Below, in pieces: positions 31,111-63,620 of a DNA stretch of 64,000 nucleotides (the first letter of the stretch is position 1; the number at the start of each line of letters is the position of its first letter). The stretch is taken from positions 10,410 through 74,409 of the forward strand of contig JAUWLW010000008.1 in assembly GCA_030613505.1 (NCBI GenBank), given 5' to 3'. The notes under the pieces are model-generated. The model searched no databases, was not told the DNA's origin, and worked only from the letters and a program-made list of their open reading frames with translations. The translations under genes were made by a program, and so were the position numbers. This DNA is from Candidatus Zixiibacteriota bacterium. Its GTDB lineage: Bacteria > RBG-13-66-14 > B26-G2 > WVWN01.

Positions 31111-31138
31111 GTAAAAAAAGAGGGCTTGCGCCCTCTTT
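31111..31138 (-). terminator. Terminator of selenoprotein-like gene copy 1
   Basis: Minus strand: AAAGAGGGC, loop GCAA, GCCCTCTTT followed by TTTT. The stem and loop are the same as those after copies 2 and 3. Confidence 0.9.
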
Positions 31139-31162
31139 ATCGCCCGCGGGTGATAGCGTTTG

Positions 31163-31906
31163 CTAGTTGAACAACGCCTTGACGCTACCGAATGACGTCG
31201 GCACTATACTCGTAGAATACGGACGGGCGCCAATGTCCTTACCGCCTTCGCCGGCACCTCTACAGGGTGAACTCTCGGCGAGGTCGAAATCGTTGTTCTC
31301 GAAGTTTTCAAATAACGGGTCCTTGTGGATCTCGCCCGTGCCCGGTTTGGGAACAAAACTGTTCCACACGTGTCCTCAACCTACGCACAGGTACATGTAG
31401 TTCCCGCCGGGATTACTATCTACGTCGTTATACAGGATTGTAAGCGTAGGAGTGTTCTCGTGGCGCGCGACGCCGTATTTGACGTTACCCCAGATTATGT
31501 TGTTCTTGATGACGGCCGTCGAGCTCAACCAGACTACGACGCCCATGTTCCCTTTGCAAATCGTATTGCCTTCGATTAAGGCTTTAGCCCCTTCGTATAC
31601 GGCTACCGCTCCGCTATACTCGTTGCAGTTGATAAGGCAGCAACCGGTGATATGAAGGTCCGTTCCGTATCCGGCGGCGTAAACCGAACCATCCTTCAGA
31701 TCGCACAACGCGCCGTTGCCGCGTATGCAAGACTTCTTACCCTTTAGTACGTCGCAACGACCCGTATATACCTCGTTAGGGTCAAGCACTAGAAGTTTGT
31801 CGTATCCTTCCCCAGGTCCCGCTTCGTCGTACGCTTGTTGGAGGGTCTTGGCAAACGTAACAGATACCGCAAGCGTTAGTGCCAACAATACGACGGAGTA
31901 ACGCAT
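31163..31906 (-). CDS. Candidate selenoprotein, exported beta-helix-like, copy 1 (in-frame TGA at 31376-31378)
   Basis: An ATG at 31906 with GGAGGT 9 bases upstream begins a signal peptide (cleavage near VTFA). A Cys-rich body follows with parallel beta-helix character (GKKSCIRGNGALCDL, ITGCCLINCNEYSGAV, ALIEGNTICKGNMGVVVW, AVIKNNIIWGN). The frame reaches TGA as codon 177 in CVG-TGA-GHVW, then continues in frame for 70 residues (NSFVPKPGTGEIHKDPLFEN, DFDLAESSPCRGAGEGGKDI) to TAG at 31163-31165. The part after TGA is homologous to the same part in copies 2 and 3 and carries the family's normal C-terminal rung (DPLFxN...SPCxGAG). I interpret TGA as selenocysteine, giving 247 residues. This copy lacks one residue after TGA compared with the others. 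If TGA is a stop, the product is 176 residues. Confidence 0.75.
31348..31368 (-). promoter_or_regulatory. SECIS-like hairpin after TGA, copy 1
   Basis: Minus strand: GGAAC (31365-31361), loop AGTTTT, GTTCC (31354-31350). The stem can be extended by two pairs (TG with CA) past a single bulged U. The loop begins 15 bases after TGA and has G in its second position. It is the weakest of the three hairpins. Confidence 0.55.
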
Positions 31907-32000
31907 TTTTATCGACCTCCTTTTTACTACTTTTACCCTCTTTACGAACCGCGCCGGTTACAACGATTTTAATCACGGCCCGTACGAAATACTCTAATTA

Positions 32001-32029
32001 TTTATAACATCGGCCCAGTCTCAAGACAA
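32001..32029 (-). promoter_or_regulatory. Promoter of copy 1
   Basis: Minus strand: TTGTCT (32024-32029), 17-base spacer, TATAAA (32001-32006), with TGT just before the -10 (extended -10 type). The start codon is about 95 bases downstream. Confidence 0.65.
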
Positions 32030-32052
32030 GCTAAATCGACACGTAATAACAG

Positions 32053-32078
32053 TAAAAAAGAGGGCTTGCGCCCTCTTT
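32053..32078 (-). terminator. Terminator of selenoprotein-like gene copy 2
   Basis: Minus strand: AAAGAGGGC, loop GCAA, GCCCTCTTT, then TTT. Same stem and loop as the terminators of copies 1 and 3. Confidence 0.9.
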
Positions 32079-32101
32079 TTAAGCGCGAGTGCGTCAACTT
32101 G

Positions 32102-32830
32102 TTATTTGAAAGACGCTTTTACGCAGCCCAGCGAAGCCGGCGCTACACCCGTACCGTACGGCCGGCCACCCATGTCTTTACCGTTCTCGCCAGCGCCTTT
32201 ACAGGGCGAATTCTCCGCGAGGTCGAAATCGTTGTTGTTGTAATCCTCGAAGAGAGGATCTTTATGTATTTCGCCTGTACCCGGTTGTGGAAGGAAACTT
32301 TTCCACGTACCGCCACCTCAACCGGGGCACCAATACATATAGTTCCCTTTGGCGTTATTGTCCAAGTCGTTGTAGAGAATCGTCGGTGACGAGGTCTCGT
32401 CCCGGGTGATGCCGTAGTCGTTACCCCATATAATATTATTTTTGATCGTCGCCTGGCCTTGCCAAACCCTAACGCCCATCTCGCTCTTGCATATCGTATT
32501 ACCATCCACCAAGGCTTTGGCGCCGTTGTCGGCCCCAATCGCTACACCGCCGTTTATCAAACAACAGCCCGTAATCACGAGTTCGGTACCGGCTTGCGAC
32601 GCGCACACCTGGCCATTCTTCGGGTCGATCAACGCGCCGTTGCCGCGGATGCAAGATTTCTTGCCCTTTAATACATCGCAACGACCCGTATATACCTCGT
32701 TAGGGTCAAGCACTAGGAGTTTGTCGTACCCTTCGCCCGGAGGCGCCGCGTCGTACGCCTCTTGGAGAGACTTCGCCCACGCCGCGGGCGTAACGAGCGC
32801 CAGAGCTACGATAAATGCTATATAGCGCAA
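32102..32830 (-). CDS. Candidate selenoprotein, exported beta-helix-like, copy 2 (in-frame TGA at 32318-32320)
   Basis: The start is TTG at 32830 with GGAGGT 8 bases upstream, at the same place as in the other copies. A signal peptide (ALVTPAAWA) is followed by the family body (GYDKLLVLDPNEVYTGRCDV, KKSCIRGNGALIDPKNG, VITGCCLINGGVAIG, VDGNTICKSEMGVRVW, TIKNNIIWGND). TGA is codon 171 in YWCPG-TGA-GGGTW. The frame continues in homologous sequence (KSFLPQPGTGEIHKDPLFED, SPCKGAGENGKDMGGRPYGT) to TAA at 32102-32104, giving 242 residues if TGA is selenocysteine. The Cys three residues before makes a CxxU pair like those of redox selenoproteins. Copy 2 is somewhat shorter than the others in the middle of the helix. 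Confidence 0.77.
32282..32312 (-). promoter_or_regulatory. SECIS-like hairpin after TGA, copy 2
   Basis: Minus strand: GTGGAA (32306-32301) pairs with TTCCAC (32292-32287); the A-C next to the loop does not pair, leaving AGTTTC as core loop. A lower stem CGGT/ACCG (32312-32309 with 32285-32282) extends it. The loop begins 17-18 bases after TGA. Stem positions 1 and 5 differ from copy 3 on both sides so that pairing is kept. Confidence 0.65.
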
Positions 32831-32910
32831 CGTCTATCACCTCCTTTGCCGTCGTCTTCTTCAGACTCAACAACGTTCAACGCGTTTACCTAATCGCGCG
32901 TGTTTATTAA

Positions 32911-32938
32911 ACTATAACATCTCCCCTTTTAAAAACAA
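32911..32938 (-). promoter_or_regulatory. Promoter of copy 2
   Basis: Minus strand: TTGTTT (32933-32938), 16-base spacer, TATAGT (32911-32916), again with GATGT before the -10. Confidence 0.6.
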
Positions 32939-32962
32939 GGTAATTAACCCTACTTACCCCAA

Positions 32963-32990
32963 GAAAAAAAGAGGGCTTGCGCCCTCTTTT
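32963..32990 (-). terminator. Terminator of selenoprotein-like gene copy 3
   Basis: Minus strand: AAAAGAGGGC, loop GCAA, GCCCTCTTTT, then TTT. Same stem and loop as for copies 1 and 2. Confidence 0.9.
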
Positions 32991-33013
32991 TCGTTCCGGA
33001 ACTATTGGCGTTC

Positions 33014-33772
33014 CTAGTTGAATAAAGCCTTTACCTTGCCGAAGGATGTCGGCGTTATAGCCGTGCGGAACGGCTTCCCGCCCATATCCTTGCCGCCTTC
33101 GCCGGCGCCCCTGCACGGGGAACTCTCGGTCAAGTCGAAGTCGTTATTCTCGAAGTTTTTGAATAACGGGTCCTTGTGGATCTCGCCCGTGCCTGGCGTT
33201 GGTACGAAGCTGTACCAAGTGCCGCCACCTCAACCCGGGCAGAAATACATGTAGTTGCCGCCGTAGTGGGAGTCGACGTCGTTGTAGAGGATGTTCAGCG
33301 TACCGGTATACTGGTGTTTGGCGATGCCGTACATCGACCCGCCGCTCTTGTTATTCTTGAAGATGATGTTGTTCTTCACAGTAGCGGAGGAATACGCCCA
33401 GATGTAGAGGCCGAGCCCGTTTTTACAGATCGTATTTCCGTCGATGTTCGCGGTAGCGCTATCGGCAACGTAGATCGCGCCGAAGGTACCGCCATTTATC
33501 AAACAGCAACCCGTAATGTCCAGTTGGGTACCGGGCTGAGCAACGAATACCTGGCTGTCGCCGAGGTCGCAAAGCGCGCCGTTACCGCGAATGCAGGACT
33601 TCTTGCCGATCAAAACACCGCACCCGCCGGTATACGTCGTATTAGGATCGAGCACAAGGAGCTTGTCGTAACCTTCGCCGGCACCGGCCTCGTTGTAGGC
33701 CGACTGCAACGTTTTCGCCACGGCCGCGGGGGCTATAAGCGCCAGTGCCAATAAAACGACTAAATAACGCAA
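33014..33772 (-). CDS. Candidate selenoprotein, exported beta-helix-like, copy 3 (in-frame TGA at 33230-33232)
   Basis: TTG start at 33772, 8 bases after GGAGGT. Signal peptide (LALIAPAAVA), then the Cys-rich helix body (TGGCGVLIGKKSCIRGNGAL, LDITGCCLINGGTFG, IDGNTICKNGLGLYIW, TVKNNIIFKNNKSGG, NILYNDVDSHYGGNYMY). TGA is codon 181 in FCPG-TGA-GGGTW. The frame goes on (YSFVPTPGTGEIHKDPLF, SPCRGAGEGGKDMGGKPF) to TAG at 33014-33016; 252 residues if read through. The ILYNDV...GxI..DPLF...SPC.GAG pattern is that of a common bacterial beta-helix repeat family, where sequence runs through this point without a stop. No function is known. The first and best-promoted unit of the three. Confidence 0.78.
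33195..33226 (-). promoter_or_regulatory. SECIS-like hairpin after TGA, copy 3
   Basis: Minus strand: TTGGTAC (33218-33212), loop AGCTTC, GTACCAA (33205-33199), a perfect 7-bp stem; below it GGCG (33226-33223) pairs with CGCC (33198-33195) with a 4-base bulge on the 5' side. The loop begins 18 bases after TGA. The E. coli fdhF SECIS has 17 bases and a 6-base loop, AGGUCU. Confidence 0.7.
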
Positions 33773-37511: not shown

Positions 37512-38339
37512 ATGAGCCGTTTATCTTTAATTGCGGCTACGGTAATGATAGTATGCCTGCCCGAAGCTCGAGCGGGTGTAGGTTCGGTAATCTCTTCTTT
37601 TGTCGCGGCCTCGGAGAGCGAGCGCCGCAACGCCTGGGCCGCCTACCGCGACCGGCGCGACCTAGAGCACGTTTACGCATTCTGCGACCAACCGAACGAG
37701 GTCCGAAAATTCACTACTCGCGGTTCGCTTGTCTCCTCCTATAGTATAGAAACGCCGTGGCCCTTACGGGGCACCGACACTACGCACCTGGGCCCGGGCT
37801 ATATGGGCCTTTGCGGCGGCGAAAAAGACTTCAAAATCCTCAACCTCGCTACGGGAAAGATTGTATATTCCTACGCTACGTCAATAACGTACAATGACTT
37901 CTTCTACGACGGTACCCATTACTATTTTAAGCCCTTCTCCGCGGGTGGCTTTTTCTACCGATATACTACTAGCGGTGAATATAAAGGATGGATTCACTAC
38001 GACGGGTACCCGCCGGGGGGATGGTTCGGCGGCTGCGGTTATACGAACCGCTTCGCCGGCGCGGTAGGTTCGTACGTAATTATCGATTTATGGTCCCCCG
38101 ACATAACGGTGGCGTTAACGCATCCTGGAGGGTCGCTGGTCAATGCGTGGCATTCCCCGGGCGCAGGTTTCGGTTCAACGTGCGGCCCGGCTGCATTCGG
38201 TAACTACGGCATCACGTTTTGGGGAATATTCGACTTACGTAGTAGCCGGGATAGTTGGTTATACCAAGTCGATATTTCCGGCGCGGTCCCGGCGGTAACG
38301 CCATCGTCCGTGGGAAAAATAAAGGCAATATACCGCTAA
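37512..38339 (+). CDS. Secreted protein, propeller-like, with shared C-terminal tag (paralog 1)
   Basis: 275 residues with a signal peptide (cleavage near PEARA). The body has repeating short strands rich in aromatic and Gly residues (YNDFFYDGTHYYFKPF, GYTNRFAGAVGSYVIIDLW) as in beta-propellers, but no named repeat. The C-terminus VTPSSVGKIKAIYR matches the tag of the next gene and, more loosely, those of the three selenoprotein candidates. No Shine-Dalgarno is visible; a TATACT at 37494-37499 lies so near the ATG that a very short leader is possible. Function unknown. Confidence 0.7.
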   Translation: MSRLSLIAATVMIVCLPEARAGVGSVISSFVAASESERRNAWAAYRDRRDLEHVYAFCDQPNEVRKFTTRGSLVSSYSIETPWPLRGTDTTHLGPGYMGLCGGEKDFKILNLATGKIVYSYATSITYNDFFYDGTHYYFKPFSAGGFFYRYTTSGEYKGWIHYDGYPPGGWFGGCGYTNRFAGAVGSYVIIDLWSPDITVALTHPGGSLVNAWHSPGAGFGSTCGPAAFGNYGITFWGIFDLRSSRDSWLYQVDISGAVPAVTPSSVGKIKAIYR

Positions 38340-38345
38340 ACGTTA

Positions 38346-39104
38346 ATGGGTAAGGTACTTTTAATTTATTTTATATTAGCTATTACGCCGGCCGCCGCCC
38401 TCGCTGTTTTAGGCGAAGTAGTAAATTCTTTCCCCGCGCCCGACGAAAAGCCGCGGGCTCTCGCCCGAAGCCCGGAATCCCTTTTCGTTTATTGCTACAC
38501 CTGGGGCGATAATATCTGGCGTCTAAACCCAACCAACGGGTCGGTCGTCAGCTCGTTTCCGTCGCCGTTCGGCGTCTTTACTACCGGCCTAAGCTATTCG
38601 TGGGGCGGGAACCTATGGATCGGTAACTGGTATAATAACTACGTATATAGATGTGCCGCGTCTAACGGGAGTATATATGGTTCGTGGTATGCAGGCCACA
38701 AACCCCGAGGTTTGGCTGTTGAATGCGCAGGCGACGGGGGCTTTAACCCGCGAGCCATATTTTCGTCGGACACCAGCCCACGGTACGTTTGGCGTCACGA
38801 CCTAACGAGCGGGAGAATCTACTCGAGCTTTAAACCTGGCGCACACATCTTAGACATTGCGTGGGATTGGCGGAACAAAGTCGTTTGGGGCGGGTACTCG
38901 TCGACTATTTACGGGTACCGTACCGCCGGGGCTACCGTTTTCTCTTTCCCCTCCCCCGGCACCTCGCCATACGGCTTTGCTTATTACGCGGAACATTTGT
39001 ACGTAGCGACTTACGAGAAGAATTTTATATGGCAAATACATTGCCCCCGCTTTGAACCCGTAACCCCGTCGTCAATAGGTAAAATTCGGACTTTGTATAA
39101 ATAG
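38346..39104 (+). CDS. Secreted protein, propeller-like, with shared C-terminal tag (paralog 2)
   Basis: 252 residues, 6 bases after paralog 1. Signal peptide (LLIYFILAITPAAALA), then repeats of about 45 residues of the form W.LNPTNGSVVSSFPSPFG, YRCAASNGSIYGSW and WRHDLTSGRIYSSF, a propeller-type pattern in which each blade ends in a serine-phenylalanine strand. The C-terminus is VTPSSIGKIRTLYK. It appears to be a distant paralog of the gene before it. No enzyme motif is visible. Confidence 0.72.
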   Translation: MGKVLLIYFILAITPAAALAVLGEVVNSFPAPDEKPRALARSPESLFVYCYTWGDNIWRLNPTNGSVVSSFPSPFGVFTTGLSYSWGGNLWIGNWYNNYVYRCAASNGSIYGSWYAGHKPRGLAVECAGDGGFNPRAIFSSDTSPRYVWRHDLTSGRIYSSFKPGAHILDIAWDWRNKVVWGGYSSTIYGYRTAGATVFSFPSPGTSPYGFAYYAEHLYVATYEKNFIWQIHCPRFEPVTPSSIGKIRTLYK

Positions 39105-63363: not shown

Positions 63364-63424
63364 GCGATTACTTAATGTACCCTGTCGCCCTACCCGTCGT
63401 AGGGGTCTACCCGGCTTGCGCCGG

Positions 63425-63620
63425 GGACAAGCAGCCTGAGGTTAAGTTTCCTGGCTCGCGGGTTATCCTACCGGCCGGCGCCTTCCCGGTTTCCCAGTGG
63501 CAAAAGTGCCGGCTTTCGTTACCGCTTACAGTGGCGGGGCCGCGGCGGCTTTTCACCGCCTTCCGTACACCCCAGGCCAATATTCAATTTTAGACGCCTT
63601 GCCACTTTGGCTTGGCGCAC
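63425..63620 (-). ncRNA. Cobalamin riboswitch
   Basis: Minus strand, 5' to 3': GGAAGGCGGTGAAAAGCCGC, then GGCCCCGCCACTGTAAGCGG (the conserved core of the cobalamin aptamer), GCCACTGGGAAACCGGGAAG, and the B12 box GAGCCAGGAAACTTAACC near 63440-63455. Order and spacing fit the class-I cobalamin riboswitch. Exact ends are approximate. Binding of adenosylcobalamin should turn the uptake operon off, here most simply by termination at 63339-63363. The short open frames that can be read across this region are not genes. Confidence 0.95.

Follow-up and report, generated by a model that had tools for sequence, protein, structure and literature searches.

Prokaryotic selenoproteins have been catalogued in 119 families and subfamilies, and most of the characterised ones have a thioredoxin-like fold (2026 catalogue, PMC13188914). 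Among the catalogued CxxU selenoproteins are GrdA, the SelW-like and AhpD-like proteins and the TonB receptor of the FCYXU type (PMC13188914, Table 1). The genes described here likewise have a Cys three residues before the predicted Sec, a bSECIS-like hairpin and the Sec machinery. With the right-handed parallel beta-helix proteins (PF13229, PF05048, TIGR03804) they have the predicted fold and the sequence signature of the middle part in common. To one beta-helix protein, the periplasmic copper-handling NosD of nitrous oxide reductase maturation, their sequence similarity is distant.

The window, which is the whole stretch of 64,000 nucleotides analysed from a Candidatus Zixiibacteriota bacterium (contig JAUWLW010000008.1), contains three paralogous tandem frames on the minus strand (Table 1). 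A single in-frame TGA is found in each copy at the same aligned place, within C-V-G-U-G or C-P-G-U-G, and is followed by 70, 71 and 71 residues in copies 1, 2 and 3, which are conserved in all three. Copy 1 starts with ATG, copies 2 and 3 with TTG. All three are preceded by a Shine-Dalgarno-like GGAGG and followed by a terminator-like hairpin, the three hairpins being almost identical to one another, so that each copy looks like a separate transcription unit.

Table 1. Positions of the predicted selenoprotein genes, Sec codons and hairpins in the window.
Feature	Position	Strand	Remarks
Beta-helix selenoprotein gene, copy 1	31163..31906	-	247 aa, Sec177, stop TAG; read-through translation, Pfam Beta_helix and NosD, alignment
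Sec UGA codon, copy 1 (very likely)	31376..31378	-	
bSECIS-like hairpin, copy 1 (GGAACAGUUUUGUUCC)	31350..31365	-	apical loop 16 nt after UGA
Intrinsic-terminator-like hairpin 3' of copy 1 (AAAGAGGGCGCAAGCCCTCTTTTTTT)	31113..31142	-	
Beta-helix selenoprotein gene, copy 2	32102..32830	-	242 aa, Sec171, stop TAA; read-through translation, Pfam, alignment
Sec UGA codon, copy 2 (very likely)	32318..32320	-	
bSECIS-like hairpin, copy 2 (GUGGAAAAGUUUCCUUCCAC)	32287..32306	-	first loop G at loop position 3
Terminator-like hairpin 3' of copy 2	32053..32082	-	same as that of copy 1
Beta-helix selenoprotein gene, copy 3	33014..33772	-	252 aa, Sec181, stop TAG; read-through translation, Pfam, alignment
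Sec UGA codon, copy 3 (very likely)	33230..33232	-	
bSECIS-like hairpin, copy 3 (UUGGUACAGCUUCGUACCAA)	33199..33218	-	apical loop 18 nt after UGA
Stop codon, copy 3	33014..33016	-	
Terminator-like hairpin 3' of copy 3	32964..32993	-	same as that of copy 1

Upon pairwise comparison, the copies were 61–70% identical before the TGA and 69–80% identical after it. In related genes, dN/dS downstream of the TGA was mostly 0.1–0.35, and the tail is therefore under purifying selection as protein. An altered genetic code was ruled out, with TGA closing nine of the 37 long ORFs of the window and apparently some family members as well. Decay or sequencing error was also ruled out, as the TGA is common to all members (see below) and selection acts downstream of it. 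On these points the original prediction, made from sequence alone, was confirmed: the shared TGA and the read-through frames were as described, the part after the TGA is as conserved as the part before it and is selected as protein, an artefact is very unlikely and the code is unchanged. Elsewhere in the window, a cobalamin riboswitch was identified at 63423–63589 on the minus strand (Rfam RF00174, 87.6 bits).

A fourth paralog is present in the same genome, on contig 62. Relatives from the same genus and order all carry one TGA, and scanning named genomes added members in TA06, Zixibacteria and Neomarinimicrobiota. Among 245 Marinimicrobia genomes 30 full-length matches were found, and among 132 Zixibacteria genomes 17, all with a single TGA; in both searches a wide score gap separated the members from generic beta-helix proteins without TGA. 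In total, 60 full-length members were collected from four groups at phylum level, Coatesbacteria, TA06, Zixibacteria and Marinimicrobia. In their common alignment the Sec column (U181) is TGA in 60/60, exactly one per member, and the partner column (C178) is Cys in 59. Cys was not observed at the Sec column of any full-length member, and no Cys form of the family was found in 61 genomes (the own genome and relatives), 245 Marinimicrobia, 132 Zixibacteria and one TA06. No full-length homologs were found that end at the TGA codon or lack the downstream part. Two membership criteria of bacterial selenoproteins, conserved coding sequence after an in-frame UGA and homologs that have UGA or Cys at its column, were both fulfilled, the latter by UGA only. 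No relatives were found on viral contigs.

In the tree, Marinimicrobia and Zixibacteria form one clade each and Coatesbacteria appear in two places, which fits mostly vertical descent with old duplications. Judged from this tree, the window paralogs apparently split before the species of the genus diverged. Three Zixibacteria paralogs kept Sec with an altered partner motif: C-G-U in L095, C-U in L099 and D-P-E-U in L109, the last with Asp replacing the partner Cys. A CxxU pair is therefore not strictly required. In three other members (L044, L045 and L048) TGA is apparently both the internal Sec codon and the terminal stop of one gene, a natural within-gene contrast for SECIS dependence. By eye, the conserved gene neighbours look like histidine-degradation genes and pyrF in Marinimicrobia, and like ATP synthase and a transporter in Coatesbacteria. 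This conservation looks like plain synteny, and nothing indicating a substrate was seen in the gene neighbourhood.

The genome containing the window (2.86 Mb, 93% complete) was found to encode complete Sec machinery, meeting that membership test with all components over curated cut-offs: SelA, SelB, SelD and a tRNA-Sec with UCA anticodon (66.7 bits, above the gathering score). Its SelD has an in-frame TGA of its own in CTTAAGUAAK, followed by a strong hairpin, and serves as an internal positive control for Sec decoding. In one tested set of carriers SelB scored above cut-off in every genome except G062, a partial genome of 1.1 Mb. Among Marinimicrobia, SelB was present in 26/30 carriers versus 141/215 non-carriers (Fisher one-sided p 0.013). 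This enrichment is only supportive, because SelB is common in Marinimicrobia and the genomes are drafts; the four carriers without a SelB match are likely due to draft incompleteness. In the relative G004 a single gene, by eye an aminotransferase-like ORF, separates a selenoprotein pair from selB upstream of it. Near selB in this genome, three tandem ORFs (L086:107-2274, minus strand) have a stretch like 'PRGIEVLVKKAAVDPEFRALLLAERSAAAAEIGLEL' in common and look like a repeated leader-like family.

Hairpins downstream of the UGA were assessed with the published bSECIS rule (PMC13188914). Copies 1 and 3 satisfy all criteria; copy 2 has no hairpin under the strict rule, the position of its first loop G being slightly outside. 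Weak hairpins occur in a few Coatesbacteria sequences (L018). A conserved Trp codon located 9 or 12 nt downstream of the UGA marks the beginning of the stem in Marinimicrobia, TA06 and Coatesbacteria, and the apical loop has G/GU. With the hairpin anchored on this codon and the amino acids held fixed, 2000 synonymous recodings were generated as a null. In Marinimicrobia 88 of 90 pairs were observed versus 66.9 (sd 2.6) upon recoding, and in Coatesbacteria 62 of 72 versus 52.0 (sd 2.0), values reached by 0/2000 recodings in both cases. The single TA06 sequence was not significant alone against this null. The pairing excess was highest one to three codons after the UGA. For 16 distinct aligned sequences the covariation score was 0.589 versus 0.228 shuffled (0/500) and dropped, as did the pairing, when the helix was slid; 15 helix cells had changed on both sides versus a shuffled mean of 4.3, and G and T at positions 9–10, in the loop, were invariant. 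Since these nulls ignore relatedness, the figures are not exact probabilities.

The RNAalifold consensus of 12 Coatesbacteria sequences around the UGA had a weak covariation term, because the register of the hairpin shifts between copies, a problem resolved by the Trp-codon anchoring and the recoding test. The shortness of the hairpin explains why MFE z averaged only −0.87 in a 45-nt window; an Rfam scan of the window gave no SECIS match at gathering scores. The Zixibacteria sequences have a GGU-loop hairpin further downstream, about 27–37 nt after the UGA, which was given less weight because it partly covers codons whose protein sequence is conserved. In Marinimicrobia and Coatesbacteria, compensatory changes go beyond coding constraint, as a bacterial SECIS should show.

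The TGA in the three window genes is thus very likely decoded as selenocysteine, a reading with strong computational support and no peptide or selenium measurement. The same reading in the original prediction is supported by machinery, homologs, hairpin and wide distribution. Neither outcome named there as refuting it was met, SelB and tRNA-Sec being present together with SelA and SelD, and homologs that stop at the codon being absent; of the two options it suggested looking for at this column, Cys and TGA, only TGA was found. Its statement that CxxU is the commonest redox motif of selenoproteins was not exact, as the 2026 catalogue has UxxC more often than CxxU.

The fold was predicted to be a right-handed parallel beta-helix, with strong computational support. 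NosD (PF05048) scored over the gathering score in all three copies and Beta_helix (PF13229) in two. An AlphaFold2 model with Sec entered as Cys had a pLDDT of 89 and a pTM of 0.84, and the segment after the UGA was modelled with high confidence to about residue 230. Structural neighbours were PL6 alginate lyase (best Z 15.7, rmsd 4.0 over 195 residues) and pectate lyases; Foldseek gave no match with E under 0.001. With the Pfam score and the beta-helix neighbours of the model, the membership test for this fold was met. Among solved proteins NosD is the closest in sequence (E 1e-5). Generic relatives lack the C-x-G-U loop, which is inserted ahead of the last rungs and ranks among the most conserved parts of the 60-member alignment.

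Export was inferred. The N-terminus is hydrophobic with an A-x-A, as seen by eye in the alignment without a signal-peptide predictor. C-terminal parts differ by phylum on one common core: Zixibacteria member L047 has a T9SS type A sorting tail (TIGR04183), which by eye the tails of other Zixibacteria copies resemble, several Marinimicrobia members have dockerin-like repeats, again by eye, and Coatesbacteria members end in a short PTSxGxVKALF tail. Such phylum-specific tails would favour an exported or surface position. Ends resembling PTSxGxVKALF (VTPSSVGKIKAIYR, VTPSSIGKIRTLYK and VSPVSLGALKAAFR) also occur in neighbouring predicted proteins at window positions 37512–38339 (+) and 38346–39104 (+) and at L086:11145-11744; possibly this is a lineage-specific sorting or anchoring tail.

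The family appears to consist of obligate-Sec beta-helix proteins with a CxxU centre, export being inferred. Decoding of the UGA as Sec, the beta-helix fold, the obligate Sec column and the machinery are the parts best supported by computation. In the proposed mechanism, each gene would encode a protein of about 25 kDa that carries a signal peptide at its N-terminus, is exported and folds into a small right-handed parallel beta-helix. A SECIS hairpin starting 9–12 nt after the UGA would direct tRNA-Sec and SelB to insert selenocysteine at this codon, and this decoding would give the full-length protein in which the last part of the fold can form. Sec would end a Cys-x-Gly-Sec loop inserted before the last helix rungs and, with the Cys, would form a reversible selenenyl-sulfide. 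The product may be an exported thiol/selenol redox protein acting on peroxide, disulfide or oxidised sulfur/selenium species. Of the readings considered, an exported beta-helix with a redox-active Cys-Sec pair is the likely one; in it, export, redox chemistry and substrate are inferred and the function is untested.

Ranked next, and unlikely, is that Sec is decoded but the Cys-Sec pair is a site for soft metals or metalloids (Cu, Hg, As, Cd), the exported NosD-like beta-helix serving to scavenge or deliver metal. In its favour are the NosD Pfam scores of all three copies, NosD as best solved sequence relative, a Sec whose conservation exceeds that of the exact partner motif, given the CxU, CU and DPEU variants, and the relation of other catalogued CxxU selenoproteins to metals. 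Against it, the NosD model TIGR04247 scored far under its cut-off (18 versus 300 bits), no metal-export genes were evident by eye adjoining the genes, and CxxU is usual as a redox motif. Still less probable is a carbohydrate-active enzyme, a polysaccharide lyase or epimerase on a beta-helix with a structural or accessory Sec. The likeness to PL6 alginate lyase and pectate lyases speaks for it, but such likeness is generic among beta-helices and no indication of function, the Foldseek search gave no significant match and conservation is among the highest at the C-x-G-U loop. That translation truly ends at the UGA, or passes it only by chance or through a near-cognate tRNA inserting Trp or Cys, with a relic or minor product downstream, is compatible with the lack of protein evidence and with UGA as normal stop of other window genes and apparent terminal stop of L044, L045 and L048, but is all but excluded by the obligate TGA with no other codon at the column, the purifying selection downstream, the complete Sec machinery and the compensatory changes in the hairpin.

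A sister family, with members L051, L052 (identical to L115) and L116, shares with the main family the GYDK block at the N-terminus and some of the C-terminal region. Its hosts are bacterium Glo_17 and Phycisphaerales, and it was found in 2/400 genomes in the order of G071. The motifs are LUEYGU (L051), LCDYGU (L052/L115) and LUDYGU (L116), so that the first, partner position is occupied by Sec in two members and by Cys in the third, the usual Sec/Cys equivalence. With two in-frame TGA each, two of the members may be double-Sec proteins. A bolder form of the redox reading, which could as easily fail as hold, is that exported beta-helix redox proteins with an obligate need for Sec form an ancient class across Coatesbacteria, TA06, Zixibacteria and Marinimicrobia, alongside this sister class, two members of which carry two in-frame UGA.

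The analysis adds an apparently undescribed selenoprotein family without a Cys form among its 60 full-length members, which methods searching for Sec/Cys pairs would miss. Automatic annotation would be expected to end all of its members at the UGA. The family occurs in roughly one of every eight Marinimicrobia genomes sampled (30/245), so that uncultured bacteria may use selenium in their exported proteins more than is currently estimated. These small proteins allow a direct test of the role of Sec in an exported beta-helix. If the bolder form of the redox reading is true, Sec chemistry on this scaffold would amount to a novel type of selenoenzyme, and it could partly account for the retention of Sec machinery in these lineages.

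Upon comparison with known systems, the membership test for any of the 119 catalogued families was not met, and no beta-helix or NosD family is named among them (families of Haft and Tolstoy 2025 taken via the 2026 review). The catalogued CxxU selenoproteins are different proteins, none of them named as beta-helix or NosD (PMC13188914, Table 1). In an NCBIfam scan no selenoprotein model matched the Sec region, the window copies matching only a beta-helix repeat and, below cut-off, NosD; the original prediction recognised no described family with this architecture, which agrees with these two resources. A search of titles and abstracts returned nothing relevant on selenoproteins with parallel beta-helix, NosD, Coatesbacteria or Marinimicrobia. 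The Omp28-related selenoprotein (NF045500) matched one Marinimicrobia member weakly (E 0.029; 13.7 versus a cut-off of 200), in the C-terminal tail only and not in the Sec region. Membership of NosD was not met (TIGR04247, 16–18 bits versus 300), and the NosD similarity ends before the Sec loop. Generic beta-helix members found, unlike the window family, have neither the inserted C-x-G-U loop nor the in-frame TGA. The three window genes likely represent a new family of selenoproteins, apparently undescribed so far, whose fold has no entry among catalogued selenoproteins.
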